A stretch of DNA of 64,000 bases, from NCBI RefSeq assembly GCF_015751905.1, contig NZ_JADOUF010000001.1:2666001-2730000 (forward strand), in the 5' to 3' direction. Positions 10,525 through 64,000 of this stretch are shown in pieces. The DNA comes from Longispora fulva (GTDB lineage Bacteria; Actinomycetota; Actinomycetes; Mycobacteriales; Micromonosporaceae). The notes under the pieces are model-generated. The model did no database searches. It was not told the origin of the DNA and was given only the letters and a program-made list of their open reading frames with translations. The position numbers were made by a program, and so were the translations under genes. Each line of letters opens with the position of its first letter. Position 1 is the stretch's first letter.

Positions 10525-12603
10525 ATGCGCAAGAAACTCATCCTGGCCGCCGGCGTGCTGGCGGCCGCCTTCCTGGTGGTGCCGGCCACGCCGGCCGCCG
10601 CCCTCGACAACGGCCTGGTCCGCACCCCGCCGATGGGCTTCAACAACTGGAACTCCACCGGCTGCGGTCCGGACTTCAACGCGGCGATGGTCACCGGCAT
10701 CGCCGACACGTACGTCAGCTCCGGACTCAAAGCCGCCGGCTACACCTACGTCAACATCGACGACTGCTGGGCCCTGCCGAACCGTGACACCGCCGGCAAC
10801 CTGGTGCCCGACCCGGTCCGGTTCCCCAACGGCATCAAGGCCGTCGCCGACTACGTGCACGCCAAGGGGCTGAAGTTCGGCATCTACTCCAGCGCCGGCA
10901 CGCACACCTGTGACGTGAAAGGGTTCCCCGGCGCGCTCGGCCACGAGCAGGCCGACGCCAACCTGTGGGCCTCCTGGGGAGTGGACTACCTCAAGTACGA
11001 CAACTGCAACAACCAGGGTGTCGACGCCAAGCAGCGCTACACCGCGATGCGTGACGCGCTGAAGAACACCGGACGACCCATCGTGTACAGCATCTGCGAG
11101 TGGGGTGCCAACGCGCCATGGGAGTGGGCGCAGGGCATCGGCAACTCCTGGCGGACCACCGGCGACATCAGCGACAACTGGCCGACGATGATGACCATCG
11201 CGCACCAGAACGCGTCACTGGCCAGCTACGGCCGACCGGGCGCCTGGAACGACCCCGACATGCTCGAGGTCGGCAACGGCGGCATGACCGACACCGAGTA
11301 CCGCACGCACTTCAGCCTCTGGGCCATGATGAACGCACCGCTGCTGATCGGCAGCGACCTGCGCACCGTGTCAGCGGCAACCCTCAACATCCTGCGCGAC
11401 CGCGACGTGATCGCCCTGGACCAGGACCCGCTGGGCCGCTCGGCAACCGAGGTCACCAACGCCGGCGGCAAGACGGTCATGGTCAAGGTGCTGGCCAACG
11501 GCGACCGCGCTGTCGCCCTGGTCAACGAGAACAACCGGCCGTTGACCATCACCACCACCGCGGCGGAACTCGGCATGGGCGGCTCGTCGGCGTACGCGGT
11601 CAAGGACCTGTGGACGAAGGCGACCAGCACCAGCGCCGGCGTGTTCAGCGCGGTGGTCCCGGGGCACGGCACGATGCTGCTGCGGGTCACCCCGAACGGC
11701 CGGCCCGGCATGCCCACCGGCATCACCCAACTCGCCGACCTACCCTGGCAGAGCGCGACCAGCGGCTGGGGCCCGGTCGAACGCAACCTGAGCAACGGCG
11801 ACCAGGCCGACGGCGACGGCCGCACGATGACGATCGGCGGCACCACCTACCCGCGAGGCCTGGGCGTGCACGCCGGCAGTGAGATCGTCTACCAGCTCGG
11901 CGGCGACTGCACGTCGTTCACCGCCGACGTCGGCGTGGACGACGAGACCGGCCCCAGCGGTTCGGTCGTCTTCCAAGTCCGCAAAGACGGCGCACTGGTC
12001 GCAGACAGCGGCCGCCGCACCGGTGCCGACCCCGCGACCCGGTTGACCGTCGACCTGACCGGCGGCCAGGAACTGCGGCTGGTCGCCACCGACGCCGGCG
12101 ACGGCATGAACTGGGACCACGCCGACTGGGCGAACGCCCAGGTGATCTGCGGCCACGGCCCGGCCGCCGGCACCTGGAGCCTCAGCGCCCTGCCCTGGCA
12201 GAGCGCCGCCGGCGCCTGGGGTCCGGTCGAGCGGGACCGCAGCAACGGCGAGCAAGGCCCCCACGACGGCCACCCGATCTACATCGGCGGCGTGTACTAC
12301 CCGACCGGCCTCGGCACCAACGCCGCCAGCGAGATCGTGTACTTCCTCGGCGGCACCTGCTCGACGCTGGGCACCGACGTCGGCATGGACGCCGAGGCCG
12401 GCACGCGCGGCTCCGTGGTGTTCCAGATCTACGCCGATGGCGTCAAGGTCGCCGACAGCGGCGTGGTCCGAGGCGCAGAGGCGGCCCGCAGCCTCACGGC
12501 GAACCTGACCGGGGCAAAGGAACTGCGACTCGTCGTCACCGACGCCGGCGACGGAGCCAACTCCGACCACGCGGACTGGGCGGGGCCGACGATCACCTGC
12601 TGA
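10525..12603 (+). CDS. Secreted GH27 alpha-galactosidase with two NPCBM-like domains
   Basis: A 692-residue exported enzyme. A signal peptide covers residues 1-28 ([20 protein letters not shown], ending in AAA). The GH27 barrel follows: [11 protein letters not shown] near residue 37, NIDDCWALP near 77, the catalytic nucleophile Asp in YLKYDNCN near residue 157, and the acid/base Asp in [11 protein letters not shown] near 245. A beta-sandwich domain runs to about 395. Two related modules then follow (about 400-548 and 552-692). Each has LPWQSA near its start, GWGPVER or AWGPVER, and DAGDG-x2-x-DHADWA near its end, which fits NPCBM-type carbohydrate-binding domains. The enzyme should release terminal alpha-galactose outside the cell. 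AAGGAG precedes the ATG. Regulation by the adjacent LacI protein is likely. Confidence 0.93.
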
Positions 12604-13197
12604 TCATCCTCGGACAACCCCGGCAACCGACCTGACCGGATGTGCGGGACGCGTGCTCATCTCATGGGCTTCTCCACGGGGTGGGCATGCGTTCAGGTTC
12701 ACTGCGGGCTGTTCGTACAACGGTCACAGCGCGGATGGCGCAAGCAGGAACCCGTGAACGCCGGTCAGGAGGCACTACTTCTCCCGCGGACGCTCCTGAC
12801 CCGCGGAATCGGACCCACGCCGTACCTGCAGGCGGCCGAACCTGCGGCGATCGGACCCACGGTCCTTCGGTCCATCGCGCCGACACCAGATCGGCCAGGC
12901 TCTCAGTCGAAGACGACGCGGCCGTCCTCGACGACCCGGCAGGCGACGGATCGCCCGGTGGCCGCATCAGCGCGACCGCCCGGTCCCCCTCGTGGTCCGG
13001 GCGGACCGTGGTCAGCACCGCGCCGCAGATCTCACCGGCCGTCACCGCACCGGGGCCAGGTAGTCGGCGACTGCGCGCACGTCAATGTCGCGGTCGGCGC
13101 CGATCCTACGAAGGTGCCCGCCCTCGGCGACGATCACGTTTCAAAGTTGATCAAGGGCCGTGTTTCATGAGTGTGCCGGGTGAGGCATCATCGGGCG
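12604..13197. other. Region with decayed coding sequence
   Basis: On the minus strand between about 13140 and 12902, two frames give protein-like text: VIVAEGGHLRRIGADRDIDV, then after a shift AGEICGAVLTTVRPDHEGDR, then CRVVEDGRVVFD. This looks like the C-terminal end of a frameshifted gene I cannot name. The first 300 bases show nothing beyond Arg-rich open frames. Confidence 0.3.
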
Positions 13198-49936: not shown

Positions 49937-50950
49937 ATGATCGTCGCTCCCGCCCCTCAGAAACCCTCCCGCGAGAGGGCCCCGGCGGCCAGGTTCACCC
50001 GCTGGATCCTGGCCCTGCCCGGGCTGTCCGTGCTCCTGCCCATGGTGCTCGGCGCGGACATGGGCTCGGCGATCGGTGGCCGCCAGGAGGTCGCCCTCCT
50101 CTCCGACCTCCTGGCGCACACACCACTTCCCGCGATCGGTGCGCTCCTGTTCGTCATCGGCGCCCAAGTCCCGGTCCGCGACCTGGGGGCGCTGGCAGCC
50201 CGCACCGGCACCATCCTCGCCGCCGCCACGGCACTTCCGGCACTGCTGGTGCTGGGCTACGGCTGGGCCTGGGGTCCGCGCGGGCTACTCGGCGTCCCCC
50301 TGTTGACCGTGGCCAGCAGCGGCATGTCGATCTCCAACAATGTGTGGGTCGGGATCGTGCGCAAGATCGGCGCCCCTGCCGATGTGGCTGCCGGATGTGT
50401 CGCGGCCGTGGCGTCCAGCGGCCCCCTGGTCCCGCTGCTCGTCCTCGCGGTGTGGCGGCGTCACGCCACGTCGGCGCCGTGGACCCTCGCACTCGGCGCG
50501 GTACTACTGCTCGGCGGCGGTGTCCTGACAGGCGTGATCCTTCCGGCCTGCAAGGCGCCGCTGGCCCGCTTGACCACCCCGCTGCTGGTCGCGATGAGCG
50601 TAGCGATGGGGTGGGCAATCCCCCTACAAGCCCTTGCCCGAGCGGCTCCCCGGGGGATCGTGGTGGCCGTGACCTCCGGTTTGGTCACCGGGGGCACGGC
50701 CGCCCTGCTCTGGACACGCCTCGGCCACGGGCCCGCCGCGATCGGTTGGGCCGCAGCCGCGCCCGCCGGAGTGTCGGTCACCGTTCCCACGATGATCGCC
50801 ATCGCCGACCCGTACTGGTCGCAGTGGGCCCCGACCGCGACCGCGCAGACCGCCGCCGCCGTGCTCGCGGGCATCATCCTCACGACCTTCCTCGGGACCG
50901 TCGCCAGGCCCCGCCCACACGACGGGAGCCGCACATGGACACCCTCATGA
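49937..50950 (+). CDS. KdgT-like 2-keto-3-deoxygluconate permease
   Basis: A 337-residue membrane protein with about ten helices. LPGLSVLLPMVLGADMGSAI opens the first; LLGVPLLTVASSGMSISNNV, AAGCVAAVASSGPLVPLLVL and AAPAGVSVTVPTMIAIADPY mark the repeats of the KdgT family, which imports 2-keto-3-deoxygluconate with protons. The order of Gly/Ser-rich turns fits, but no catabolic enzymes for that sugar acid lie nearby, so the substrate is open. The GGDEF gene starts within its last 16 bases. Confidence 0.75.
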   Translation: MIVAPAPQKPSRERAPAARFTRWILALPGLSVLLPMVLGADMGSAIGGRQEVALLSDLLAHTPLPAIGALLFVIGAQVPVRDLGALAARTGTILAAATALPALLVLGYGWAWGPRGLLGVPLLTVASSGMSISNNVWVGIVRKIGAPADVAAGCVAAVASSGPLVPLLVLAVWRRHATSAPWTLALGAVLLLGGGVLTGVILPACKAPLARLTTPLLVAMSVAMGWAIPLQALARAAPRGIVVAVTSGLVTGGTAALLWTRLGHGPAAIGWAAAAPAGVSVTVPTMIAIADPYWSQWAPTATAQTAAAVLAGIILTTFLGTVARPRPHDGSRTWTPS

Positions 50951-51672
50951 TCGCCACCATGGCGGGTGCCACCCCCACCGCCGTGGTGGCCGGCATCGGC
51001 TGGGTCAGGACCCGCCTACGCCTGCGCCACGCACACGAGACCGTGCGACAGCTACGGACCCACATCGGCGAGGCCGAGTACGCCGCCACCCACGATCCGC
51101 TCACCGGGCTTCTCAACCGGCGGGGCCTCACCACCGCCCTCACCACTCACCTGGGCTCAGCACCCGGTCCCACGGCGCTGCTCCTGCTCGACCTCGACGG
51201 GTTCAAACAGGTCAACGACACCCTGGGCCACACGGCCGGCGACCAGGTCCTGGCCATACTCGCCCGGCGCCTGCTCACCTTCGCCGCAGGAGCCATCACC
51301 GCCCGACTCGGAGGAGACGAGTTCTTCGTCTACCTGACCAGCCCGTACCCGACACCCGTCGACCCCCGAACCTGGCCACAACCACTCGCCGAACGCCTTC
51401 GACAGGTCCTCTCCCGTCCGATGCGCATCAGCGGCCGCGCCCTGCGGGTCACCGCCGCGATCGGCATCGCTCCGGCTACCCGCAACGCCCCACTCGGCGA
51501 CCTGCTCACCCGTGCCGACCGCGCCCTCTACCGGGCCAAGGCAGCCCGCGACGGCGTCGCGATCTACGGGTCATACCTCGACAAGGCGCCTCCCAGCCAC
51601 CACATCAAGCACGACATTCTCACCGCCGACACACCACCCGCCTCCAAGATCATAGAAGGAACACGGGAATGA
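50935..51672 (+). CDS. GGDEF-domain diguanylate cyclase
   Basis: A 245-residue protein starting MDTLMIATMAGATPTAVVAG. A short hydrophobic N-terminus and a helix (RHAHETVRQLRTHIGEAEYA) lead to the cyclase domain: DPLTGLLNRRGLTTAL, LLLLDLDGFKQVNDTLGHTA, and the active-site loop RLGGDEFFVYL near residue 125. The GGDEF loop is intact, so c-di-GMP synthesis is possible. An inhibitory RxxD site is not obvious just before it. No sensory domain is attached. It overlaps the permease gene by 16 bases, so they share a transcript. c-di-GMP could affect the nearby pilus, but that is inference. Confidence 0.85.
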   Translation: MDTLMIATMAGATPTAVVAGIGWVRTRLRLRHAHETVRQLRTHIGEAEYAATHDPLTGLLNRRGLTTALTTHLGSAPGPTALLLLDLDGFKQVNDTLGHTAGDQVLAILARRLLTFAAGAITARLGGDEFFVYLTSPYPTPVDPRTWPQPLAERLRQVLSRPMRISGRALRVTAAIGIAPATRNAPLGDLLTRADRALYRAKAARDGVAIYGSYLDKAPPSHHIKHDILTADTPPASKIIEGTRE

Positions 51673-51895
51673 CCGACCCTTTGCGGTGCCGAGCACCGAG
51701 CGAAGAGCACCAGTCCGGCGATGTTGGGCAGCGATCGCGGACCGGGGCGATCGCGGTGTCAACAGCCTCTGTCGCTCTCCGCCGACGCCCGGGTGCCCGG
51801 TCCCGAGTGCTCCTGGGTGTCGCCCGGTGGTGCCCTGCCTTTTGATGAACGTGCCAGCATGCACAGGACGGACGCCGGAACCATAGAATCCGACT

Positions 51896-52753
51896 GTGGA
51901 CATCCCGTCGTTGTGGCAAGAGTTGGAGAACATCCTAACGCCGATGCTCGCCGGCTTCCGTTCCAAACGGTCCCTCCGCGTCGAGCAGAAGTCTGATAGG
52001 ACCCTGCTGTCGGAGGCAGACGAGGCGGTGCAGGACCAGATCATCAAATGTGTGCGAGCTGCCGACCCGAATGGATTGATTCTCGGCGAGGAAGGCGTCC
52101 ATGGCCCGGATCTCCTTCGTGGGAGTGACCCGAGCAATCGGCTTTGGATCATCGATCCCATCGACGGAACGGCCCAGTTCGTTGATGGCGCGGGTCGAGA
52201 GTTTTGCAGTGTCGTTTGTCTCGTTGAGGACAGGACACCGGTAGCCGCTTTTGTTTTGGCGCCTGAGATCGGACCCAGTCGTAGTTCCGTCTGCATTAGC
52301 TTGAGCGGCCGAAACGAGCCGATACTGATCAACGGTATACGGGTCGCTGGTAGGTCGATGTCCAGTCCGTCGCGCTTGGTTTCGGTAACCCGGAGTTCCG
52401 GTACGGACGCGCGGGTCTATGAACCCGAGCTGATGGAGCGGGGTTACCAGCTCAAGGTTCGTACGACATCGCAGACGCTGGACATGGTGAGGACGTGCGT
52501 CGACCTTGCCCCGTTTACCGATCCTACTCTCGAATCGTTCGGCCTTTTCTATCGTGAGCGCCAGAAGGTCTGGGATGGTGCCGCGGGCATGTGCCTGGCT
52601 GCGGCTGCCGGACTGTTTGTGGGCGACGGCACCGGCCGAGGGCGCGCCGCGATCGATATCCCACTGGACGCCGCCGATCCTGTCTTCGGCAGCACGCTTG
52701 TGGCTTCGGATTCGGTTGCCGCTCAGATCGTCGTGGAGGCGTCCAACCGCTAG
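51896..52753 (+). CDS. Inositol monophosphatase-family enzyme
   Basis: A 285-residue protein from a GTG. Metal-binding motif I is ILGEEGVHG near residue 62; motif II WIIDPIDGTAQFVDGAGREF near 83; motif III VWDGAAGMCLAAAAG near 226, where the usual Trp-Asp-x-Ala-Ala is kept. Members remove phosphate from inositol phosphate, 3'-phosphoadenosine phosphates or sugar phosphates. Motif II is complete, so activity is likely. The substrate is unknown. It converges with the 617-residue helical protein, 19 bases between stops. Confidence 0.85.
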   Translation: MDIPSLWQELENILTPMLAGFRSKRSLRVEQKSDRTLLSEADEAVQDQIIKCVRAADPNGLILGEEGVHGPDLLRGSDPSNRLWIIDPIDGTAQFVDGAGREFCSVVCLVEDRTPVAAFVLAPEIGPSRSSVCISLSGRNEPILINGIRVAGRSMSSPSRLVSVTRSSGTDARVYEPELMERGYQLKVRTTSQTLDMVRTCVDLAPFTDPTLESFGLFYRERQKVWDGAAGMCLAAAAGLFVGDGTGRGRAAIDIPLDAADPVFGSTLVASDSVAAQIVVEASNR

Positions 52754-52772
52754 TTCGGCCTATGGAATTTCG

Positions 52773-54626
52773 CTAGCGTTCGAGTGCTCCAAGCCGCTCA
52801 ACTAAATGCTTCAGATAGGAAGGCCAAGCATGAGAAGTTGGTACGCGTTCGGCTAGCCGCTTCGCCAGTTCGATATCTCCGATGCTGGCGGCGACGCTGG
52901 CGGATCGGATTGCTAGATGGGGTATGCCTGCGGGGAGTTCTGTCGCGGCAGTAGTGAGGTAGTGCCTGGCCTGCGCGATCTCGTTGTGGCGCACCGCCTG
53001 GTCGGCCATCGCAAGCAGCCACAGGGCAGTGACGTCGGTGCGAAGATCGGTTAGCTGGTCGGCGTACACCTCATCGAGGCGGTTCAAGTCGCGTCGAAGC
53101 CGCCGGGCGCATGCAAGGGCTTCAGGATGCGGTATACGGCTCAGTAGGTGAATCACGCCGTCTGCCTCGGTTTTGCGGCGGTGAGCATTCACTGCGGAGA
53201 CTTCATCGGCATCCTCGTCGGCGATACGGAAACTGTGCTTCATTGACTCGATCATGTCGTCAACGGCGTGCACCGCCTGGCGGATTTGGTCGCCGGTCAG
53301 AGTTACCGGAGCACTGTCCATCGGCCGCCCAGCTGCGGTGAGTTCTCGGGCCTGGCGGAGGAGGATTGCCTGCTGCATATGAAGTTGGACCTTCTCCATA
53401 TGGCGCACCTCAGCGACAGGAAGGAGTTTTCTCCTGACGACCAGGAGATCGTTGATTCTGGTCACTTCGGGTCGCCAGTCCAGCCCGGGGCGGTGGTGGC
53501 TTGCCAGCATGAGCCGTTCCCGGCGAAAGCGCAGTTGAAACAGGATCGAATCCGCAGAGTCGTTACGAAATGAAGGATGGTGGAGCTCGATGTCGAGTGC
53601 GCGGCGATCGGAGTGCCTGCGAGCGACTGCGATACTGAGCAAGGCGAGGTCTTGGCGCTCTCGGTCGGTCAACATGCCCGAGGCGAGGGCGGCGTATCGA
53701 GCGAGACTAGCGAGAAGTGGTTTGGCGTCACCGGTCGAGATCAACTGCCAGGCGTAGTCGATCCCGTCAGAAAGTTGTTCGTGATCGAACGTGTTCTCAG
53801 CATCCAAGGTAGAAAGTGGCCCAGGGCGTGCCAGTGGCCCATCCGCGGCGTCCGCGAGACGTTGACCTGCAATGAGTACGATCCGTTGATCGACTGGATG
53901 CGCTGGATGTCGGGCAGTCAAGGCGGCACGATGCAGACAGAACAGGACCAACGGCACCGCCAGCCGAGACCGAGTGAACTTGCGACCGTCCATGCCGGCC
54001 AAGGCTGTTCCGTCGTAGTCGCTCATGGGCTCAGGGTTCGCCCCCGGCGCGAGGCGTGAGGCAATCAGAGCGACCCCGATCAGGATCCGCGCATCCGCTT
54101 TGGACCTTGCTTCGGCCGCTGCGTCTGCCAAGCCTCGATAGATGGCGACGTCCCGTTCCTGTGGCGGTAGTCGCTGAATCCACCTCACAGCGGGATCACG
54201 GGCGAGCACTTCCAGGCTCAGGCGCTCACCTTTCTGCGGCATCCCCAACAAGCGGACAGGGTGCTCAGCGGCACGGCGTGCGATGAACTCGTCGGCGAGG
54301 CTCTCGGCCGCATCGTGTCGCCAGTTGCTCAAGGATGCCCTGCTCGCAGACCGATCCTTTGAACCGATGGGACGCAGGTAGTAGCGGGCCAGCTCCGCCA
54401 ACCGAGCCCGTTGCTTGGCCGTCGCGCTCCTGTGGATGATTTCCGCGAGGCGGTCGCTGAGGTCATCGCGCACCCAACCGGCCAGCCGCACACGCTCCGC
54501 CCCGGCGGAGTCAAGGATGGCCAACTCGCGGTGGTCACGCGGCACCAGCCAGCCAGCGTAGTCAGCATCGACCAATCCTGAGCCACGACGGATGGCTTCC
54601 AGAAACGACAGGAAAGCCCCTCGCAT
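52773..54626 (-). CDS. Large helical hypothetical protein
   Basis: A 617-residue soluble protein, almost all helix, with repeated helical pairs through its length (LADEFIARRAAEHPVRLLGM, ALLASLARYAALASGML-like, AEVRHMEKVQLHMQQAILLR, ALWLLAMADQAVRHNEIAQA). No membrane segment and no enzyme motif. The C-terminal part resembles tetratricopeptide-type scaffolds. Family not recognised. It is alone on the minus strand, and the convergent phosphatase gene may or may not be related. GC is somewhat lower than in the Tad genes. Confidence 0.6.
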   Translation of the reverse strand: MRGAFLSFLEAIRRGSGLVDADYAGWLVPRDHRELAILDSAGAERVRLAGWVRDDLSDRLAEIIHRSATAKQRARLAELARYYLRPIGSKDRSASRASLSNWRHDAAESLADEFIARRAAEHPVRLLGMPQKGERLSLEVLARDPAVRWIQRLPPQERDVAIYRGLADAAAEARSKADARILIGVALIASRLAPGANPEPMSDYDGTALAGMDGRKFTRSRLAVPLVLFCLHRAALTARHPAHPVDQRIVLIAGQRLADAADGPLARPGPLSTLDAENTFDHEQLSDGIDYAWQLISTGDAKPLLASLARYAALASGMLTDRERQDLALLSIAVARRHSDRRALDIELHHPSFRNDSADSILFQLRFRRERLMLASHHRPGLDWRPEVTRINDLLVVRRKLLPVAEVRHMEKVQLHMQQAILLRQARELTAAGRPMDSAPVTLTGDQIRQAVHAVDDMIESMKHSFRIADEDADEVSAVNAHRRKTEADGVIHLLSRIPHPEALACARRLRRDLNRLDEVYADQLTDLRTDVTALWLLAMADQAVRHNEIAQARHYLTTAATELPAGIPHLAIRSASVAASIGDIELAKRLAERVPTSHAWPSYLKHLVERLGALER

Positions 54627-54901
54627 AGCTAGGAATTTAACAGAACTGAAAGTTCGACGGCGTCACACTTCGCTGTCCACCCATCGCAGCCGCACGATGT
54701 CAACGTGACGTCGATGGATGCGAGCGCCCTGCTCGCCTCGCCCGCAGCGCGACCGGGATTACTAAGGCCGAGGCCCGCCAGAAGACCAGACCGCCTCGTT
54801 CGTCGGAGCAGAGCCTGGCTACGGCGGCAATCCACCGACCCCCAGCGGTGTGCTATGGACTCGCGCTGCGCGGCAAAAGGAGGAACTGTGGAACCCACGT
54901 C

Positions 54902-55399
54902 TCAGGCCGACGGATTGAGGTCTGTGCTCCGTAGCGCAATGTCTACGACTTCCTCGGCTGTCTGCCTGACCTCGATGCCGTCGACCGGTTCGCCGTTGAC
55001 GTCGTTGACGCTCCAACCGCCGATGCTGATGACCGGTACGCCTCCTCGCCGCTTGGCGAGTGCCAGTTCCGAAAGTGTTCCCCAAGAGCCGCCGACGATG
55101 ATCACGACGTCGGCGCTCCAAATAATGATCGCGTTTCGGGCCTCGCCCATGCCGGTGACGATGACGGCTGACAGGTGCTCATTGGCACCGTCGCGGGTGT
55201 CGTTCGGGCGGATTCCGATGACGAGGCCGTTGTGTTCATGGGCCCCGGCGGCGACTGCGTCCATGACACCGGTGCCTCCGCCGCAGATGACGGTGGCACC
55301 GGCCTGGGCGAGGAGCTGGCCGATCCGGCGTGCGTGGGCAAGGTCGGCGTCGGTGGCGTGGCGTGGTCCGCAGACGGCGACTTGCAAGGGCATAGGCAT
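54902..55399 (-). CDS. LOG/SLOG-type protein (TIGR00725 family)
   Basis: A 165-residue Rossmann-like protein. QVAVCGPRHATDADLAHARR is the first strand and turn; GATVICGGGTGVMDAVAAGA is the Gly-rich nucleotide-binding loop; DVVIIVGGSWGTLSELALAK is the Pro/Gly-x-Gly-Thr-x-x-Glu-like motif of the lysine-decarboxylase-like (LOG) superfamily. This version belongs to the small TIGR00725 group and lacks the full phosphoribohydrolase signature, so it more likely binds a nucleotide than makes cytokinin. The XRE regulator gene ends 40 bases upstream on the same strand, so they are co-transcribed and may sense a nucleotide signal for the lanthipeptide cluster. That last step is inference. Confidence 0.8.
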   Translation of the reverse strand: MPMPLQVAVCGPRHATDADLAHARRIGQLLAQAGATVICGGGTGVMDAVAAGAHEHNGLVIGIRPNDTRDGANEHLSAVIVTGMGEARNAIIIWSADVVIIVGGSWGTLSELALAKRRGGVPVISIGGWSVNDVNGEPVDGIEVRQTAEEVVDIALRSTDLNPSA

Positions 55400-55439
55400 G
55401 GCGTGCTCCCGGGTACTGGTGGGCTCCCGGCCAATGGTG

Positions 55440-56735
55440 TCAGGCGGGCAGGCTGCGGACGGCGGGGTAGGCCAGGAACAGGGCGACCTGTTCGGTCAGG
55501 TCCGCGACCGCCGAGCCGGCTGCGGGACGGGCCAGGTGCTGGCCGAGCGCCCGCATCCTGCCTGTGATCGGCGTGGTCCGCATCTCGGTGGGAAGATCCA
55601 GGACGGGGCGCACTGCTTGTCCTGCGGCTTCTACGTCGCCGAGTGCCAGGTGTGCGGCGGCCAGGTCCTGACGGCCGGCGGCCACGAGTTCGGCGCTGTG
55701 CTGTGCCACTGGGCCGGCGGTGAGCAGCTCTACCGCGCGGGTGGCGTCGGCGACGGCGCGGCGCAGGTTGGCGGGTCCACCGAGGGAGAGACGGACTTCG
55801 GAGCTGTAATAGGCGGCCTTGCCGGGGGCGAAGTGAAAGACCCCGGGCTCGCTCGTGGTGGCGTCGGCCGCGGAGTCCTGAGCGTCGAGGCCGGTGCCCA
55901 GAGCCCGTTCAACTGCCTGGGCGTCTCCTCGGGCGGCGTGGGCGCGTGCTTCCTGGCTGGCCAGCCGCAGCAGCGTACTGCCGGCGGTGGCATAGGGGCG
56001 GGCGCTGGCTGCCAGCTCGGCGGCCTTCGCGTAGTCCCCGGACCAGTAGGCGACGTTGGCCTGGACCCACCGGACGTAGACGCGCAGTTCGCCGTGTCCG
56101 GCGTGATCGGCGCACAGCCATGCCGCGCGGGCGTGCGCGTCGGCGGCGACGGGCTGGCCGAGGTCGGCGGAAGCGTGAGCAAGCAGGGCGGTGACGCGCC
56201 CGGCGGCCAGGTACAGGTCACCGAGATGGGCCGGGTTGGGGTAGGAGTCGATCGCGGCGAAGATCTGCTCGCGCAGGGCGGCCAGCGGCCGGAACATGGC
56301 GAACGGCGGAAGACTCAGGTAAGCCACGGCGAGCCGCTGGACGTCGGTGTTGAACTGCTCGACCAGCTCACCTCCGACAGGGCGGGCGGCGGCGCGGGCG
56401 ACCCGAGCGGAGTCCTCAGCAGCCATCATGACCTCCTCGATCGTCGGCCCCGTGAGGGCGGGACCGTATGCCAGCGAAACGTCGCTGACTCTGGGCGCGG
56501 CGAGCGTCCAGCTTCGAGGATGACGCATCCGATCGGCCAAGAGAACCAGGTCCCCGTTGGCGCCGAGTTCGTCGTCAAGGAGCTGAGCGAGCGATGCGTC
56601 CGGGGTCGTCAACTCGCGTTCCAAGTTCGATATGTGGGTCTTGCCGCAGTGCACGGCGGCGGCCAACGAGCGCACCGTGTGGTCGCTGCCTTCGCGACGC
56701 CGCCGGAGTTCTGCTCCGAACGTATATCCGCCCAC
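55440..56735 (-). CDS. XRE-family regulator with helical-repeat domain
   Basis: A 431-residue protein. Residues 1-65 hold a helix-turn-helix of XRE type (FGAELRRRREGSDHTVRSLA, AAVHCGKTHISNLERELTTP). The remaining 360 residues are tetratricopeptide-like pairs (NPAHLGDLYLAAGRVTALLA, YVRWVQANVAYWSGDYAKAA, AELVAAGRQDLAAAHLALGD). Regulators with this build are common beside actinobacterial peptide clusters and can be gated by peptides or partner proteins. A 14-bp palindrome 20 bases before its start suggests self-regulation, and the divergent small gene at 56890 starts 154 bases away, so one site could serve both. Confidence 0.88.
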   Translation of the reverse strand: MGGYTFGAELRRRREGSDHTVRSLAAAVHCGKTHISNLERELTTPDASLAQLLDDELGANGDLVLLADRMRHPRSWTLAAPRVSDVSLAYGPALTGPTIEEVMMAAEDSARVARAAARPVGGELVEQFNTDVQRLAVAYLSLPPFAMFRPLAALREQIFAAIDSYPNPAHLGDLYLAAGRVTALLAHASADLGQPVAADAHARAAWLCADHAGHGELRVYVRWVQANVAYWSGDYAKAAELAASARPYATAGSTLLRLASQEARAHAARGDAQAVERALGTGLDAQDSAADATTSEPGVFHFAPGKAAYYSSEVRLSLGGPANLRRAVADATRAVELLTAGPVAQHSAELVAAGRQDLAAAHLALGDVEAAGQAVRPVLDLPTEMRTTPITGRMRALGQHLARPAAGSAVADLTEQVALFLAYPAVRSLPA

Positions 56736-56755
56736 CGGGTGCCTCCCCGTGTCCG

Positions 56756-56769
56756 TTGTCCGCGGACAA
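56756..56769. promoter_or_regulatory. Palindromic operator before the XRE gene
   Basis: TTGTCCGCGGACAA is a perfect 14-bp palindrome, 20 bases from the XRE start codon in the divergent region before the lanthipeptide genes. GTCCG on the left and CGGAC on the right recur as outer half-sites. It is the best candidate binding site for the XRE regulator. Confidence 0.7.
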
Positions 56770-56889
56770 GACGCGGACGCTCAGCGCTTTCCCCTGCACT
56801 CACCGTACAGGCAGTGTGATTCACAGCGACAGTGTCCCTTGTCGATCGAAAAGTCAATCCAAAGCCTCAGCCAGGGAGGACGTCGCTCC

Positions 56890-57246
56890 ATGTACACCAT
56901 CACGATCTTGCCGACCGGCTCCAGCTCTCACGGCCAGGTGACGCAGAGCAACGCCCAGCGGGAGTGGGAGAGCGACGATGCCCCGTCTTCCGGCGCTCCG
57001 GCTCCGCTGGCTGGCGTTGGCACGGGTAGTCAGTGGCTGCCACAGGATCGTGGCTTCGGCCGGCCCGGGGCGAGCCATGTCCGGCACGTCCGCCGTGAGC
57101 CGGCGGCGGTGCCCCGGTCCGAGTGGCCGTTCGTGTTGAGGGCGGCCACCCGGGCCTCGGTCTCCGGCTGGTCGAGCTCAACTCCTCCCCAAGGGTTCAA
57201 CTTGCTCGACCAGCCGGTCTCCCCCGTGGTTGGGAGTCTTCTATGA
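56890..57246 (+). CDS. Small hypothetical protein leading the lanthipeptide operon
   Basis: A 118-residue protein starting MYTITILPTGSSSHGQVTQS, with AGGGAGGA nine bases upstream. It is polar, rich in Ser, Gly and Pro, with no membrane helix, and it has no Cys. The C-terminal segment STPPQGFNLLDQPVSPVVGS is the least polar part. Family not recognised. The stop overlaps the next start in ATGA, so the two are coupled. A role in regulation or as a second precursor is possible, but the lack of Cys speaks against a lanthipeptide. Confidence 0.55.
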   Translation: MYTITILPTGSSSHGQVTQSNAQREWESDDAPSSGAPAPLAGVGTGSQWLPQDRGFGRPGASHVRHVRREPAAVPRSEWPFVLRAATRASVSGWSSSTPPQGFNLLDQPVSPVVGSLL

Positions 57247-57956
57247 CGACGCTGATGGGGATCGACCCTGGCGGGGTTGGCTCTGCCGATCATGCTCTGG
57301 CGGAGCTCGATCAGATGCGGTGTGTTCTCGTCTGGGGATACCGGCAGGTGCGGCGCGAAGGCGTCGGCATGGAGCAGCTGAAGCAGGCGTTGGACGACTT
57401 GGACGCCGCCGTGCGGATCGTCGCCGATGTGACGCGAGAGGTGTCCCAGGCGAGCCGCGCGGAGAGGCGTCGTCCCGCCGTAGTCAGCGCGGTACTGGCC
57501 ACCGCGGCGTTCGGCCTGCTCGCTGCGGAACCCGCTGGAGTCCTCCCCTCCGGGCTGGCCCTGGTGCTCACGGCTGTGGCGGCACTCGGCGCGCTGGTCC
57601 ACCCCGCGCGGAGGACTTTGAATTGGTGGAGGGCGAACACCGACCGGGTCCTGACAGAGAACCGGTGGAATGACCGCGCGAAGGCGATGCTGGCCGACGC
57701 TCAGGGGCAGCCGGCTGAGGTCCGCCACGCGCAGGCCGTCGCTTTGGCCTACCGGGCGGTTCGGGAGGCCGAGCGTCGGCGCGAGGTGCTGGCCAGGCAG
57801 GTCACCGTCGCGTTGGGCGTCGAGTGGGGCCCGGACTGGCTTTCCATCCTGTACAGCGGCCTGTTGCGTCTGTCAAAGCCGCTGGGCGACCTGAGCGCCG
57901 CGCTGCCGGCGCTGGACCTGGGCTCCTACGGCGCCAGTCCCGAGGCGCGGTCGTGA
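57243..57956 (+). CDS. Hypothetical membrane protein of the lanthipeptide operon
   Basis: A 237-residue protein starting MTTLMGIDPGGVGSADHALA. A helical N-terminal part (MEQLKQALDDLDAAVRIVAD) precedes two membrane helices near 80-120 (AVVSAVLATAAFGLLAAEPA; GLALVLTAVAALGALVH). The C-terminal 110 residues are a polar helix region (AQAVALAYRAVREAERRREV) and a hydrophobic end (WLSILYSGLLRLSKPLGDLS). Not recognised. Its position and membrane build make it a possible self-protection or signalling partner for the peptide product. Confidence 0.6.
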   Translation: MTTLMGIDPGGVGSADHALAELDQMRCVLVWGYRQVRREGVGMEQLKQALDDLDAAVRIVADVTREVSQASRAERRRPAVVSAVLATAAFGLLAAEPAGVLPSGLALVLTAVAALGALVHPARRTLNWWRANTDRVLTENRWNDRAKAMLADAQGQPAEVRHAQAVALAYRAVREAERRREVLARQVTVALGVEWGPDWLSILYSGLLRLSKPLGDLSAALPALDLGSYGASPEARS

Positions 57957-58051
57957 CCGCCGTCGGCAGGCCGTGCGCTGGCAGCGGCGTGCCGGTTCAG
58001 CGACCTCTGGAGCTTGATCCACGTGATCGAGAAGTAGATGGGAGACGCGAG

Positions 58052-58195
58052 ATGTCGAGAAGTATCACCACCGATTCCCAGCGGCGCTGGCGGGTGTTGT
58101 TCGTGGCGCTGTTCCTCGCCGCGCTGGCCGCTGGCTGTGTCGGCGCGGTGTACTGGGCGGTCACGAGCAGAGCCCATACCGAGGCTCCCCGATGA
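58052..58195 (+). CDS. 47-residue single-helix membrane protein
   Basis: MSRSITTDSQRRWRVLFVAL opens the product; FLAALAAGCVGAVYWAVTSR is the membrane helix; the tail is HTEAPR. A Cys sits within the helix. It is the last small gene before the precursor, in the same direction, but 330 bases separate them. No known family; accessory or immunity function is possible. Confidence 0.5.
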   Translation: MSRSITTDSQRRWRVLFVALFLAALAAGCVGAVYWAVTSRAHTEAPR

Positions 58196-58525
58196 ACGGG
58201 GCACGCGGCGAGGATCGCGGCGACCGTCGCCGTACTGACCAGCCCAGTGGATCTAGCGCGGCAGGCCGCCCTGCCCCAACCGCTCGCCGAGGACGACGCA
58301 GTTCCGGAAGGCAGTGCGCCTGGCGGTCAACCTGTGACGCCCCGCACGTCGACTTGAAGCGCCACAAGACGGTGGTGCTCACCGAGGCAGAACGGAAACG
58401 GGGCGCGCAGATCGCGGGCTGCCACATCAACGATCGGACTGCCACTCACGCGGAGCGCCGGTGGACGAGAGTGGCGGGTTGCTGCGGGGGCTACCCGCCC
58501 GCCTCACCGACATAGGAGGAACCCG
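58196..58525. other. Gap before the lanthipeptide precursor gene
   Basis: No confident gene. A frame overlapping the previous stop is Arg/Gly/Thr-rich with scattered Cys and lacks protein character. The stretch should hold the promoter of the precursor gene; its end carries the strong AGGAGGA site. Confidence 0.45.
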
Positions 58526-58660
58526 ATGAACGACCTGTTCGCCGTCGACAGCCAGCCGTTCGAGCTGGATCTGCGGATCGCCACCGAGGGTCCGGTGGTC
58601 GCCGCTCTGCTGTCGTCCACCGATGACGGCTGCGACACCAAGCAAGGCAGCGACTGCTAG
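58526..58660 (+). CDS. FxLD-family lanthipeptide precursor
   Basis: A 44-residue peptide precursor. The leader is MNDLFAVDSQPFELDLRIAT, in which FELD (residues 12-15) is the Phe-x-Leu-Asp motif recognised by the modifying enzymes of this family. The core is probably EGPVVAALLSSTDDGCDTKQ and GSDC, with Ser30, Ser31, Thr32, Thr38 and Ser42 as dehydration sites and Cys36 and Cys44 as ring partners, giving at most two thioether rings. AGGAGGA lies five bases before the ATG. LanB, LanC and an FxLD-type methyltransferase candidate follow. The Asp residues in DDGCD are possible targets of that methyltransferase. Confidence 0.9.
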   Translation: MNDLFAVDSQPFELDLRIATEGPVVAALLSSTDDGCDTKQGSDC

Positions 58661-58674
58661 ACGGAGCCGCAACG

Positions 58675-58701
58675 GCCAGGCCCGGGATTCCCGGGCCTGG
58701 C
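58675..58701 (+). terminator. Attenuator-type hairpin between precursor and lanB
   Basis: GCCAGGCCCGGG pairs perfectly with CCCGGGCCTGGC across a three-base loop, 14 bases after the precursor stop and 28 bases before the lanB start. Without a T-run it should stop most but not all transcripts or protect the upstream end, so that the peptide is made in excess of its enzymes. Confidence 0.85.
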
Positions 58702-58729
58702 ACCGAACCGACCACGAAAGGGGGATGCG

Positions 58730-61700
58730 TTGAGCCGATTTCGGCACCTCGCGACGGCCATGGTGCGCGCGAGCGCCCAGCCCGAGCCCGAACTGGGACC
58801 GTGGCCATCGGCCGACCACCCGGACCGGGTGCACCGTTGGCTGATCGGAGCCTGGTCCTCGGACACGCTGCGGTTCCAGGTCCGGCTGGCCAGTCCCGGA
58901 CTCGCCGACCGCCTGGACGCTCTCTCCGCAGGCACACACCTTGATGGGCGCGATGCCAGGCGGGCGGCGCTGGCACTGGCCCGCTATCTGGTGCGCGGCG
59001 GCCGGCGCGCCACACCGTTCGGGCTTTTCGCCGGGATCGGGCCTGCAGCCTTTGGCCCAGCGGCCTCAGTACACCACTCGGGACCGCCGGAAGTACGCCT
59101 TCGACCTGACGCGGTCTGGCTGGCCGACGTGATCTCCCGGCTGGAGCGTGCCCCGGAGCTTCGCAACCGGCTCAAGGTCGGTTCCAACAACCTGGTGGCG
59201 GCCCGTGGCGACCGGCTTGTGCTGGCGTGGCAGCCGCACGGAACCGTCACCCCAGTTCCATTCAGCGCCGAGCGGTCGGTGGCCCGGACCGCACCTGTCG
59301 AATGGTGTATCCGGCGAGCGCGGACGCCGCTACAGTTCGCGCTTCTGGTTCGGCTGCTGCGCGCGGAATTCCCGACCTGCGGCGAGCAGGCGGCCGTGGA
59401 CCTGGTCGCAGGGTTGATGGGCTGCGGGATGTTGATCTCTCAACTCCGGGTGCCGTCGACAGTCGTGGACCCTCTCGGCTTGCTGCTGGACCAGCTCCAC
59501 TCGGTCTCCGCCGAACACCTCGACGCCGTCGCCGGGCTGGTCGCTGATCTGCAGGCCGTGTGGCTGAAGCTCGGGGGCGTGGGCCTGTCGCCGGCCTTTT
59601 CCGACGCAGGCGACATGGCGGTGGTGAAGCTGATGCGCGAACTCGCGCCCGTCGAGCAGCCGCTGGTCGTTGACCTCCGACTCTCCGAACAGATCACGCT
59701 GCCCTCCGACATCGCCACCGAGGTGGAAGCAGCGGCCGGGGTGCTGGCCAGGCTCGCACCACATCCGGCCGGGCGGCCGGAGTGGCGTGCCTACCACCAG
59801 GCGTTCCTCACCCGGTACGGCACCGGATCACTCGTGCCGGTCACACAGTTGGTGGACCCGGTCTGCGGCCTGGGGTACCCGAAGCACTTCACCGCCCCTC
59901 GCGAACCGGCGTCGTCGGCGCGAGACGGGCGACTGTGCGCGCTGGCGGAGCGGGCGGTGCTCGACGGTGTCCGGGAGATCTGCCTGGATGACGACGCCGT
60001 CACCGCGCTGTCCGAGCCCGTCACACCCTCCGGCTCGCCGATGGCGCACCTGGAGGTGTGCGTGGAGGTGCATGCCGGCACCGTCGCCGACCTCAACACC
60101 GGGCAGTTCACCCTGACGGTGGCCGGCACCAGCAGGTCGGCGGCGGCAACCCGGGGCCGGTTCCTGGACCTGCTGCCCGAGCCGGCCGGCACAGACACCA
60201 CTACCGAACTGGCCGGGCTGGTCACTCTCACCGAGGGAGCGGTGCCGGTGCAGGTGAGTTTTCCGCCCCACGCCACCCGGCCGGACAACGTCCTGCGATC
60301 CCGGCAGGTGCTGCCGGAGATCATCTGCCTGGCCGAGCTCCGCAGCCATGCAGACACGGTGATCGGCCTAGACGACCTGGCCGTCACCGCCACCGGCGAC
60401 CGGCTGGTTCTGGTACAGGTATCGCGACGGCGGGTGCTGGAGCCTATGGTCACCCACGCCGGGGCCTCACACACCATGCCGCCGCTGGGCCGACTGCTGC
60501 TGGAGCTGCCCGCCGCCCTGGCCTGTCCGGTCAAGCCGTTGGACTGGGGCGCCGCATCGGCGATGCCGTTCCGGCCGGCGCTGCGCTACGGCCGAGTCAT
60601 CCTGTCCCCGGCGGCGTGGCACCTCGACCCGACCGAGCTTCCCGGCCCCACCTCCACGGAGTTGGAGTGGACAGCCCGCTGGCGGGTGGTACGGCGACGG
60701 CTCCGGCTACCGGACTGCGTGCGCATTGGGCACGGCGACCAGCAACTCCGGCTGATGCTCGCGAAGGCGATGGACCGGGCCCTGCTGCGCGTCCACCTCG
60801 ACGCGGCCGACGGGCCAGTCACCATCACAGAGGCAGCCGGCCCCAGTAGCTTCGGCTGGCTCGACAGCCGGGCGGCCGAACTCGTCGTCGGGCTCACCAG
60901 CATCCACCCGCCAGCCCCGCCACCGTCGATCCTCACCAGCGGCCCGTGGCCACCGCACGAGCCCACCGCGCCACTGCTACCCGGGAGCCGGATGCTGTCG
61001 GCCCGGTTGCTCACAACACCCGAGCTGATGGACACCATCCTCACCCGGGGCCTGCCGGCCCTGCTCGCCCAGTGGGAGACACCGCCGGAGGTGTGGTTCC
61101 TTCGGATGCGCCACCCGGAGCCACACCTACGCCTTCGGGTGCACACCGCCGACTACGGTACCGCCGCCATGCGGGTCGGCCGCTGGGCCGAGCAGCTCCG
61201 CCAGCACGGCTGGATCGGCGACCTTGTCCTGGACACCTACCGGCCGGAGACCCACCGCTACGGCCCGCATGCGTGCATGGACACCGCCGAACTGCTGTTC
61301 ACCGCCGACTCCGCCGCCGCACAGGCCCAGCTTGACGTCGCCCGGCAGCGGTGCGTGGACCTGCGGGCTCTGACCGCCGTGAGCATGGTCGACCTCGCCG
61401 GGGCAATGCTCGGCGGCCCGGCCGCGGGCCGAGAGTGGCTGATCGCCCACCCCGAGCTTGCCGCCGACACCCCGACCGACCGGACCGTACTCCGCCAGTC
61501 CCTCGCCGTCGCCAGCAATCCCGACGATGACCTGCTCGCCGAGGCGTGGACACGCCGCCGCCGGGCCGCCCAGCACTACGCGGACACGCTGGCCGCCGAC
61601 GGGGGCCGTCTGGCGGCGGATTCGGTGCTGCCAAGCCTGCTGCACCTGCACTTCGTCCGCTCCCACCTCCCCGACCCCCACGGTGAGGCCGCCGTGATGC

Positions 61701-61771
61701 GGCTGGCCCGCGCCGTCGCCCTCGCCACCGCCCGCACCCGCACCCGCACCCGCACCAGGGAGGCGGCGTGA
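58730..61771 (+). CDS. lanB: LanB: full-length lanthipeptide dehydratase
   Basis: A 1013-residue class I dehydratase, start TTG with AAAGGGGG five bases upstream. The N-terminal glutamylation part (to about residue 700) contains the conserved RRATPFGLFAGIG near residue 92; it would activate Ser/Thr using glutamyl-tRNA. The C-terminal elimination domain (about 753-1000, SpaB_C type) opens MLSARLLTTPELMDTILTRG and includes VWFLRMRHPEPHLRLRVHTA, then GDLVLDTYRPETHRYGPHAC. Both halves are on one chain, unlike split versions. The tail is an Arg-Thr repeat from a 6-bp microsatellite. The stop is overlapped by lanC. Confidence 0.93.
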   Translation: MSRFRHLATAMVRASAQPEPELGPWPSADHPDRVHRWLIGAWSSDTLRFQVRLASPGLADRLDALSAGTHLDGRDARRAALALARYLVRGGRRATPFGLFAGIGPAAFGPAASVHHSGPPEVRLRPDAVWLADVISRLERAPELRNRLKVGSNNLVAARGDRLVLAWQPHGTVTPVPFSAERSVARTAPVEWCIRRARTPLQFALLVRLLRAEFPTCGEQAAVDLVAGLMGCGMLISQLRVPSTVVDPLGLLLDQLHSVSAEHLDAVAGLVADLQAVWLKLGGVGLSPAFSDAGDMAVVKLMRELAPVEQPLVVDLRLSEQITLPSDIATEVEAAAGVLARLAPHPAGRPEWRAYHQAFLTRYGTGSLVPVTQLVDPVCGLGYPKHFTAPREPASSARDGRLCALAERAVLDGVREICLDDDAVTALSEPVTPSGSPMAHLEVCVEVHAGTVADLNTGQFTLTVAGTSRSAAATRGRFLDLLPEPAGTDTTTELAGLVTLTEGAVPVQVSFPPHATRPDNVLRSRQVLPEIICLAELRSHADTVIGLDDLAVTATGDRLVLVQVSRRRVLEPMVTHAGASHTMPPLGRLLLELPAALACPVKPLDWGAASAMPFRPALRYGRVILSPAAWHLDPTELPGPTSTELEWTARWRVVRRRLRLPDCVRIGHGDQQLRLMLAKAMDRALLRVHLDAADGPVTITEAAGPSSFGWLDSRAAELVVGLTSIHPPAPPPSILTSGPWPPHEPTAPLLPGSRMLSARLLTTPELMDTILTRGLPALLAQWETPPEVWFLRMRHPEPHLRLRVHTADYGTAAMRVGRWAEQLRQHGWIGDLVLDTYRPETHRYGPHACMDTAELLFTADSAAAQAQLDVARQRCVDLRALTAVSMVDLAGAMLGGPAAGREWLIAHPELAADTPTDRTVLRQSLAVASNPDDDLLAEAWTRRRRAAQHYADTLAADGGRLAADSVLPSLLHLHFVRSHLPDPHGEAAVMRLARAVALATARTRTRTRTREAA

Positions 61772-63030
61772 TGAGCCTGTTGGCCGACACCCCGGTCCTC
61801 CACGAAGCCGCCAAGCTGGCCGCCTCGATCAGCCACGGGCTCATCGAGCCGCCGCCCCCGGACTTCACCCCAGACGACCACAGTCCGCGCAGCACACGGT
61901 GGAACGCGCAGTCCATCGCGCGCGGCGCGGCCGGGGTGGTGATCCTGCACGGGGTGCGCGCCCAGACCGGACACGGCGACTGGCTGCCGGTCCGCGCATG
62001 GCTGCGCCGGATGACCGCCGACCCGATCGCCGCCCGAGGCCACGGAGTCGGTCTATGGTTCGGCGCCCCGGCCGTGGCACACACCCTGTCGGTGGCGCTG
62101 CCCGGGATGCTGCCCCACTATCAAGCTGAGCTCGACCGCGCGGTAGCAAGGCTCACGGGGATCAAACTCGACGCCGCCTTCGCCCGGATAGCCGTGCGCT
62201 CCCGGCCCCGGCTGGACGAATTCGACCTGGTCCGCGGCTTATCGGGGATTGGCGCGCATCTGCTGCGCCACCAGCCCGACGGCGATCTACTGGTGCGGGT
62301 GCTGCAGTACCTGGTGCAGTTGACCGCGCCGGTCGACGCCGACGACCCGGCCGGCAGGCTCGCGCCGGGCTGGTGGAGCAACCAAGCCCCAGACGGCGGC
62401 CCGCTTCGGGGCGGGCACGCCAACCTCGGGGCCGCGCACGGCATCGCCGGTCCACTGTCGGTGCTCGCTGCCGCCTACCGGCACGGCGTCACCGTGCCCG
62501 GACACGGCGAGGCGATCGAGCGGATCTGCGCATGGCTGGACCGCTGGCGACAACCGGGAACGGCGGGCCCCTGGTGGCCGCAGAAGATCGCCCTGGCTGA
62601 GCTGCGCGCGGGCGAGCCCATCCCGGGCGGTCCGCTGCGGCCGAGCTGGTGCTACGGCACCCCCGGGCTGGCCCGCGCCCAACAGCTCGCCGGCATCGCC
62701 CTCCAAGATCCCGGCCGTCAGCAGGCCGCCGAAGACGCGCTCACCCGTTGCCTGGCCGATCGCGGGCAGCTGGCCCAAATCGTCGACCCGTCGCTGTGCC
62801 ACGGCTGGGCGGGAGTCGCCGCGACCTTGTGGTACGCGGCCCTCGACGCCCGCTCCACCGCCGTGGCCCGGCACCTGTCCCCAGTGCTCCAGCAGCTCCT
62901 TCACCACGCCGCCGACGCTGCCCCGGAGCGCGCCGGCCTGATCGAGGGGCGGGCCGGGATCGCGCTGACCCTGCACGCGATGGCCACCGGCACAGACATC
63001 CGCTGGGCGACCAGCCTCATGATCGACTGA
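61771..63030 (+). CDS. lanC: LanC: lanthionine cyclase
   Basis: A 419-residue cyclase. I chose the ATG sharing a base with the lanB stop, because GGGAGG lies seven bases before it; a GTG one codon earlier is the alternative. Zinc ligands are visible: Cys in RPSWCYGTPGLARAQ near residue 294, and the Cys-His pair in SLCHGWAGVAATLWY near 343. The Gly-rich motif RGGHANLGAAHGIAGPLSVL near 210-230 is the active-site His region. It adds Cys thiols to dehydrated residues to form the rings. Co-translation with LanB fits an enzyme complex. Confidence 0.93.
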   Translation: MSLLADTPVLHEAAKLAASISHGLIEPPPPDFTPDDHSPRSTRWNAQSIARGAAGVVILHGVRAQTGHGDWLPVRAWLRRMTADPIAARGHGVGLWFGAPAVAHTLSVALPGMLPHYQAELDRAVARLTGIKLDAAFARIAVRSRPRLDEFDLVRGLSGIGAHLLRHQPDGDLLVRVLQYLVQLTAPVDADDPAGRLAPGWWSNQAPDGGPLRGGHANLGAAHGIAGPLSVLAAAYRHGVTVPGHGEAIERICAWLDRWRQPGTAGPWWPQKIALAELRAGEPIPGGPLRPSWCYGTPGLARAQQLAGIALQDPGRQQAAEDALTRCLADRGQLAQIVDPSLCHGWAGVAATLWYAALDARSTAVARHLSPVLQQLLHHAADAAPERAGLIEGRAGIALTLHAMATGTDIRWATSLMID

Positions 63031-63042
63031 ACGGAGAACCCT

Positions 63043-64000
63043 GTGGACATCGACTACAAGCCCGACAAGCCCGCCACCTGGCGACAGGTGTTCGTCACCT
63101 TCACCGACTGGCGCGACCTCGACCAGTACCTCCGCGACCACCTCGCGCCCGTACTTGCGGACGCGGAGGAATCCGGGGCGGTGCTGGCATTCTGGTTCAT
63201 CCGCAAGGACGAGGTGCTGCGGATCCGGCTGCTGCCCAGCCACGACCGAGACCAGACCGAGGCGGTGATCGAACGCCTTGCTGACCATGTGCTGGTCCGC
63301 GAGTACGCACACGTCATCTACGAGCCGGAGACGCCCGCGTTCGGCGGCGCAGAGGGCATGTCGGTGGCACATGGGCTGTTCCACACAGACAGCCGCCACC
63401 TGCTGACCCACCTCACCAACGGCGGCGGACACCAGCGGGAACTGGCGGTGCGACTCGCCGTGAGGTTCATGCGCGCCGCCGGGCTCGACTTCTACGAGAT
63501 GGGCGACGTGTGGCAGACCCTCGCCGCACACCGCGCCGTCCCTGCCGGAGTGGCCCCCGGCCCTGGGCTCGTCGCCGGGGTCCAGCACCTGATCACCGCC
63601 AGCGGCGAGACCTCAGAGAGCGCCCTGCACCGCCTGCCGAACTGGCCGAAGGCGTTCGAGCAGACCGGGCAGATGCTCGCCTACCTCAACAGCGGCGGCC
63701 ACCTCAACACCCGCGGGCTGCGCGCCGTCCTGGCCCACCACCTGCTATTCATGTTCAACCGCCACGGCGTCAGCGGCTGCGACCAGGCGCTACTGGCGTC
63801 AGCGGCCGCCCACTTCTCCTTCTGCCACACCCCCGACACCCGCCCCGGCAGCCGCCCGGATGCGCTCTCCGACACTAGGGTGACCTTGGTGACCAACGAC
63901 AATCCCACCAGCACGAAGGCCTTCCGCGACCAGCTCGTCACGACGCTGACCGGCCGAGGTCACCTGCGCGACGAACGGGTCCGCGCCGCCTTTGCCGCCG
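63043..64000 (+). CDS. SpaB_C-like domain fused to FxLD-system methyltransferase (partial)
   Basis: A GTG start with GGAG six bases upstream, open to the end of the window (319 codons and counting). Residues about 8-265 form a SpaB_C-type thiopeptide-biosynthesis domain: TWRQVFVTFTDWRDLDQYLR, VLAFWFIRKDEVLRIRLLPS, REYAHVIYEPETPAFGGAEG, AVLAHHLLFMFNRHGVSGCD. From about residue 287, AFRDQLVTTLTGRGHLRDER then VRAAFAA matches the first helices of PCMT-like methyltransferases, as in the FxLD system methyltransferase. It should methylate a carboxylate of the precursor, perhaps Asp. The catalytic part lies beyond the window. Confidence 0.8.
   Translation, partial: MDIDYKPDKPATWRQVFVTFTDWRDLDQYLRDHLAPVLADAEESGAVLAFWFIRKDEVLRIRLLPSHDRDQTEAVIERLADHVLVREYAHVIYEPETPAFGGAEGMSVAHGLFHTDSRHLLTHLTNGGGHQRELAVRLAVRFMRAAGLDFYEMGDVWQTLAAHRAVPAGVAPGPGLVAGVQHLITASGETSESALHRLPNWPKAFEQTGQMLAYLNSGGHLNTRGLRAVLAHHLLFMFNRHGVSGCDQALLASAAAHFSFCHTPDTRPGSRPDALSDTRVTLVTNDNPTSTKAFRDQLVTTLTGRGHLRDERVRAAFAA

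Follow-up and report, generated by a model that had tools for sequence, protein, structure and literature searches.

A two-cysteine FxLD lanthipeptide precursor gene and its class I operon in Longispora fulva

The 44-codon open reading frame (ORF) at positions 58526-58660 of a 64,000-nt stretch of the Longispora fulva genome (hereafter, the window) is very probably lanA, the precursor gene in a class I operon for an FxLD lanthipeptide, one that belongs to the coi/olv ("lanthimiditide") type. The exact rings of the product and their stereochemistry are less certain than the identity of the precursor and the type of pathway. With two Cys and two different lyases, the system would be a small test case of a syn-type lyase that is fused to an Asp methyltransferase and shares its substrate with the main dehydratase. 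The peptide would also be a small test case for what such widespread peptides do; according to PMC9486935, the products of such clusters are unreported from native producers.

The precursor gene and its operon

The initial annotation described a 44-residue ORF with a consensus ribosome binding site, an FxLD motif, two Cys, a DDGCDT stretch, and a terminal GSDC, located before lanB, lanC, and a methyltransferase candidate. All of these are present at 58514-58660 and directly downstream, and the methyltransferase makes up the C-terminal half of a fusion protein of 683 aa. The features are listed below in window numbering.

58514..58519, + strand: ribosome binding site AGGAGG, 6 nt 5' of the ATG (read from the sequence)
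58526..58660, + strand: lanA, FxLD precursor peptide, 44 aa plus stop (TIGR04363, 40.8 bits; the 90 loci read include 14 homologous genes for 44-aa peptides with two Cys)
58559..58570, + strand: FELD leader motif, residues 12-15 (F12, L14, and D15 do not vary among 15 aligned two-Cys precursors)
58619..58633, + strand: TDDGC, residues 32-36, predicted ring Thr32-Cys36 enclosing Asp34 (TxDGC motif, PMC10787088)
58637..58657, + strand: Thr38 to Cys44, predicted second ring (conservation in two-Cys sequences)
58675..58701, + strand: T-less 12-bp perfect hairpin, 14 nt 3' of the lanA stop (folding and relatives)
58730..61771, + strand: lanB, full-length class I dehydratase with glutamylation and anti-type glutamyl lyase domains (PF04738, E 1.1e-172; PF14028, E 8.4e-35)
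61768..63030, + strand: lanC, cyclase (PF05147, E 1.5e-34)
63043..64000 and on to 65094, + strand: fused syn-type glutamyl lyase and FxLM/PIMT methyltransferase, 683 aa (PF14028, PF01135, TIGR04364)
65101-66300, directly 3' of the methyltransferase gene: 399-aa protein (weak TPR-like matches)

The ORF at 58526-58660 on the + strand encodes MNDLFAVDSQPFELDLRIATEGPVVAALLSSTDDGCDTKQGSDC. The peptide carries F-x-L-D in the leader and Cys and Ser/Thr in the core, as do FxLD precursors. C36 and C44 are its only Cys, the C-terminus reads GSDC, and the core region contains five Ser/Thr (S30, S31, T32, T38, and S42). The peptide had been annotated as an FxLD lanthipeptide precursor with the proposal to search it against FxLD models, where a leader without a match would speak against the assignment. 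The NCBIfam FxLD precursor model TIGR04363 matched residues 11-44 with 40.8 bits (cut-off, 30), and relatives show synteny, which bears the assignment out. When the model was run against the whole 8.68-Mb genome, lanA scored E 2.5e-9 and was the only one over the cut-off among the nine genome matches listed (next, E 0.149). Matches at E up to 10 were obtained in 8 of 14 control genomes, none of them above the cut-off. In 82 of 90 relatives, a piece of AGGAGG of at least 4 bases precedes the chosen start, which was picked by a script favouring starts with an AGGAGG-like site. The lanA genes of the subgroup described below (the window and 14 homologous 44-aa genes, n = 15) gave uncorrected means of 0.121 for pN and 0.322 for pS. 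The ratio of 0.38 would fit purifying selection. To judge from its sequence, lanA is a real gene, a genuine but ordinary member of the common, already named FxLD family. It had also been remarked that genes this short are easily missed; this holds in principle, but NCBI's model TIGR04363 finds lanA, so that the short precursor is within reach of a curated model.

As in class I clusters, a LanB (PF04738 and PF14028) adjoins a LanC (PF05147). The LanC contains the WCYG and LCHG motifs, which we take to be the carriers of the zinc ligands in LanC enzymes. In the fused protein, the lyase part covers residues 13-257 (PF14028, 79.6 bits) and the FxLM/PIMT part covers residues 293-667 (PF01135, 125.6 bits). 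TIGR04364 ("methyltransferase, FxLD system") matched the fused gene with 428 bits (cut-off, 320); hence, the window passes both curated models, that of the FxLD family and that of FxLM. With its PCMT domain stopping at residue 506, the 683-aa fused protein is a RiPP-type PIMT homologue with a C-terminal extension of more than 100 aa, as in lanthimiditide clusters (PMC10787088). All four genes are open, with full domain matches and the key motifs kept. The same order of lanA, lanB, lanC, and fxlM was seen in a plasmid cluster of Streptomyces sp. NBC_01454, whose genes are annotated as FxLD family lanthipeptide, lantibiotic dehydratase, lanthionine synthetase C family protein, and fxlM.

The two-Cys core and its ring positions

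A survey of the same bacterial family, probably Micromonosporaceae, gave a TIGR04363 match (E up to 0.001) in 125 of 354 genomes, 124 of them over the cut-off, and in 27 of 44 genera; the one other genome of the window's genus that was examined gave no match. The matches listed numbered at least 150 with the window included, and 90 of the other 149 were read. These 90 loci comprised 30 that were returned and 60 that were hand-picked, with the low-scoring end sampled more fully, before the cores were seen. Together with the window, they provided 91 precursors.

TxD[GNS]C occurs in 90 of the 91 precursors and the exact TxDGC in 65. TxDGC is a published core motif of the family (PMC10787088), and the DDGC of the window fits it; DDGC is therefore no new feature. 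Within the last 30 residues, 49 precursors have four Cys, 31 have two, 8 have three, and 3 have five; the window peptide differs from the largest class in having only two. The C-terminal two-Cys core TDD[GN]CDT...DC was found in 19 of the 91 precursors, window included, a share that is not an unbiased frequency because of the hand-picked sampling. The remaining 12 two-Cys precursors have a different core of the GSGNTGS type. A motif scan of named genomes provided 29 loci, including those of Micromonospora, Salinispora, Asanoa, Actinoplanes, Streptomyces, and Frankia, and 28 of them fit the two-Cys motif; the scan used that motif itself and thus shows breadth, not frequency. The exception, from a metagenome bin (L166, 6001-6111), has TDNGC, with Asn replacing the conserved Asp. 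Asn in this position could also give a succinimide through deamidation.

The initial annotation had suggested that the two Cys and the DDGCDT stretch may mark a new product. The comparison of cores argues otherwise: DDGC lies within TxDGC, and DDGCDT...DC lies within a subgroup conserved in several genera. The novelty of DDGCDT was rejected, as the motif recurs both among the 91 precursors and in the named genomes. A literature search for DDGCDT that covered running text gave no match. The core of the window peptide, letter for letter, was absent from every other precursor compared (the 90 family loci and the named loci), a difference that we regard as ordinary variation within the subgroup. 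On these comparisons, the two-Cys core is best taken as a conserved subgroup spanning several genera and not as an oddity or curiosity.

With two Cys and five core Ser/Thr, several ring closures are conceivable. The first predicted ring, Thr32-Cys36, lies in the TDDGC of the peptide, the TxDGC motif with its modifiable Asp; Ser30/31-Cys36 would be an alternative. For the second ring, Thr38-Cys44 is preferred over Ser42-Cys44 because Thr38 is constant, whereas Ser42 is variable. Thr38 is kept in all 19 subgroup members ending in DC, the cores of which were unseen at fetching, and Ser42 is missing in 5 of these 19. No hidden counter-example to Thr38 exists among the 91, since the remaining 12 two-Cys precursors all lack a terminal DC. 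In a set of 30 distinct two-Cys sequences, in which L166 was excluded and duplicates of the same genomes were counted once, Thr38 is present in 30/30, although the selection motif itself contained it.

The alternative that best survives has the same precursor and operon, with Ser42-Cys44 as a small lanthionine in place of the second ring and Thr38 left as dehydrobutyrine or unmodified. Ser42 does occur in 18 of the 30 distinct sequences, the window among them. It is absent from the other 12, in which the last Cys is kept (as the motif demanded), and is thus probably not essential for the second ring. Moreover, a lyase of the type found in this operon poorly converted the T57S variant of CoiA1 (PMC9486935), and that lyase type is kept here. 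We therefore consider a Ser42-Cys44 ring unlikely and retain Thr38-Cys44 as the predicted second ring.

A tentative reading, which we hold to be possible rather than probable, is that the TDDGCDT...DC subgroup represents a minimal, widely shared coi-type product, with an aspartimide- or isoAsp-containing Thr32-Cys36 ring and a D-allo-L Thr38-Cys44 ring closed at the C-terminal residue. Literature searches that covered running text gave no description of a two-ring, two-Cys scaffold.

Two lyases and the proposed pathway

Syn-type lyases are distinguished by a Lys where anti-type lyases have Tyr and by a hydrophobic residue replacing NisB Arg826 (PMC9486935; PMC9011353). The fused lyase of the window has Lys55, Arg60, Arg62, Glu96, and Ala99, of which Lys55 and Ala99 are the syn-type residues. 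In the lyase domain of its LanB, the column of NisB Arg826 holds Arg, and the conserved His columns are kept. Relatives were aligned with pieces of up to 120 aa and loci without a match left out, so that the second lyases came from 20 of 21 two-Cys loci and 14 of 20 others, and the LanB lyases from 19 of 21 and 18 of 20, respectively. Of the 34 second lyases, 33 have the Lys and one has a gap; Ala99 is conserved in 32, with one Val and one Arg, the latter in 1 of the 20 from the two-Cys set. All 37 LanB lyases have Arg at the Arg826 column, and 17 have Tyr at the Tyr position. At that Tyr column, the LanB of the window has Met; of the 19 two-Cys LanBs, window included, 15 have Met, Leu, or Ile there.

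The syn-type residues in the fused lyase place the operon with the coi-type clusters. Like the window, the coi cluster of Streptomyces coelicolor A3(2) (CoiA1/CoiB/CoiC/CoiSA/CoiH) encodes a full-length LanB, a LanC, and a methyltransferase fused to an extra syn-type lyase (PMC9486935), and the window has an extra downstream protein that is possibly the counterpart of CoiH. The precursors differ: CoiA1 forms three MeLan rings (PMC9486935), whereas the window peptide, with two Cys in all, has no such CoiA1-like core and could form at most two thioether rings. The olv cluster of Streptomyces olivaceus (OlvA/OlvSA), which makes a characterised isoAsp lanthipeptide, shares with the window the class I enzymes, the PIMT homologue, and a conserved Asp in a MeLan ring, predicted in the case of the window (PMC13001092; PMC9486935). 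Unlike that of the window, the methyltransferase of the olv cluster is not fused to a lyase, and mOlvA exceeds mCoiA1 by one Lan ring (PMC9486935).

Based on these similarities, the following pathway is proposed. The FELD leader would recruit LanB, which would glutamylate Thr/Ser. Glutamate would then be eliminated by the anti-type lyase of LanB itself and by the second, methyltransferase-fused syn-type lyase. Addition of the two Cys by LanC would close the rings Thr32-Cys36 and Thr38-Cys44. In the first ring, Asp34 would be methylated by the PIMT-like FxLM half, leading to an aspartimide that may be hydrolysed to isoAsp. A TxDGC core with a PIMT is the published setting for the conversion of Asp to aspartimide/isoAsp (PMC13001092; PMC10787088; PMC7268733). 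The syn-lyase residues predict one D-allo-L-methyllanthionine, which has been shown for coi-type clusters (PMC9486935). If this chemistry is carried over to a two-ring core, Thr38-Cys44 would be the likelier D-allo-L-MeLan ring, by analogy with CoiSA; given the three MeLan rings of CoiA1, its stereochemical assignment may not be transferable.

The operon organisation was compared among 20 fetched two-Cys loci. The order of lanB, lanC, lyase, and methyltransferase is present in 18 of them, and the lyase and methyltransferase share one open frame in 18, including L123 and L128, the latter with a short methyltransferase match only. The two domains lie in adjacent frames in L115, and L121 has matches only to a shortened lanB. 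In L113 and L128, the lanB match is not within one ORF as defined. Of 20 loci whose cores are of other types, one (L142) has the lyase-methyltransferase fusion. Clustering of neighbouring ORFs included many opposite-strand shadow ORFs and served as a guide only. A scan of genome contigs with the LanB query found no relatives. In L123 (3204-5564, reverse strand of the fetched stretch), a single 786-aa frame joins the start of lanB to the second lyase and the methyltransferase; lanA is kept and lanC has no match, an apparent product of deletion.

Apparently degraded relatives such as L123 and L121 raise the question of whether the window cluster is itself decaying or silent and its peptide a relic. 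Its four open genes with full domain matches and key motifs, together with the subgroup pN/pS of 0.38, make this very improbable. Short ORFs are abundant (153 of at least 30 aa overlap 50000-64000), but a chance frame with an FxLD-like string was rejected as next to impossible on the genome-wide model E-value, the equivalent position of homologues in syntenic clusters, and the pN/pS.

The hairpin and neighbouring genes

Of 41 loci scanned, 39 have a perfect stem of at least 10 bp (G-U allowed) no more than 75 nt past the lanA stop; dinucleotide shuffles predict 1.9 such loci (75-nt stretches, loops of up to 25 nt). An initial scan with loops of up to 8 nt had found such stems in 17 of 41 loci, and the loop limit was widened afterwards. 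All 21 two-Cys loci, window included, have the hairpin, and the two misses are L132 and L139. The 41 loci are not independent, as close relatives share the hairpin sequence; between distant FxLD loci, the sequences differ although the position is the same. In the window, the 76-nt stretch around the hairpin has a folding z of -2.7, and equally good folds arose in 2 of 200 shuffles. A scan of 58300-58760 found no sigma-70 promoter and no T-tract terminator. Similar hairpin elements occur in other lanthipeptide operons. A role in attenuation between lanA and lanB or in protection of the lanA mRNA is likely; by limiting read-through or protecting this mRNA, the hairpin would probably let the substrate exceed the enzymes.

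The 399-aa downstream protein has relatives (350-400 aa; tblastn) in 22 of 40 related loci, namely 15 of 20 two-Cys loci and 7 of 20 others. Its matches in Pfam were only TPR-like and weak or fell below the cut-off, NCBIfam gave none at E 0.1, and a PDB search yielded nothing useful. Its relatives in 10 plasmid records are annotated as "hypothetical protein" in nine and unannotated in one. Farther downstream is an alpha/beta-hydrolase gene (14665-15318 in L018 numbering, where 11043-13094 is the fused gene at 63043-65094 of the window), for which tblastn gave no match in the 40 related loci. Upstream of lanA, an NsdA-family TPR-like regulator with a helix-turn-helix, over its NCBIfam cut-off, is encoded on the - strand at 55440-56735. 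In one genome (G000), two PIMT-like matches of equal score and equal length lie 466 kb apart on contig 1 (7371798-7372442 and 7838119-7838763) and are perhaps a recent duplication.
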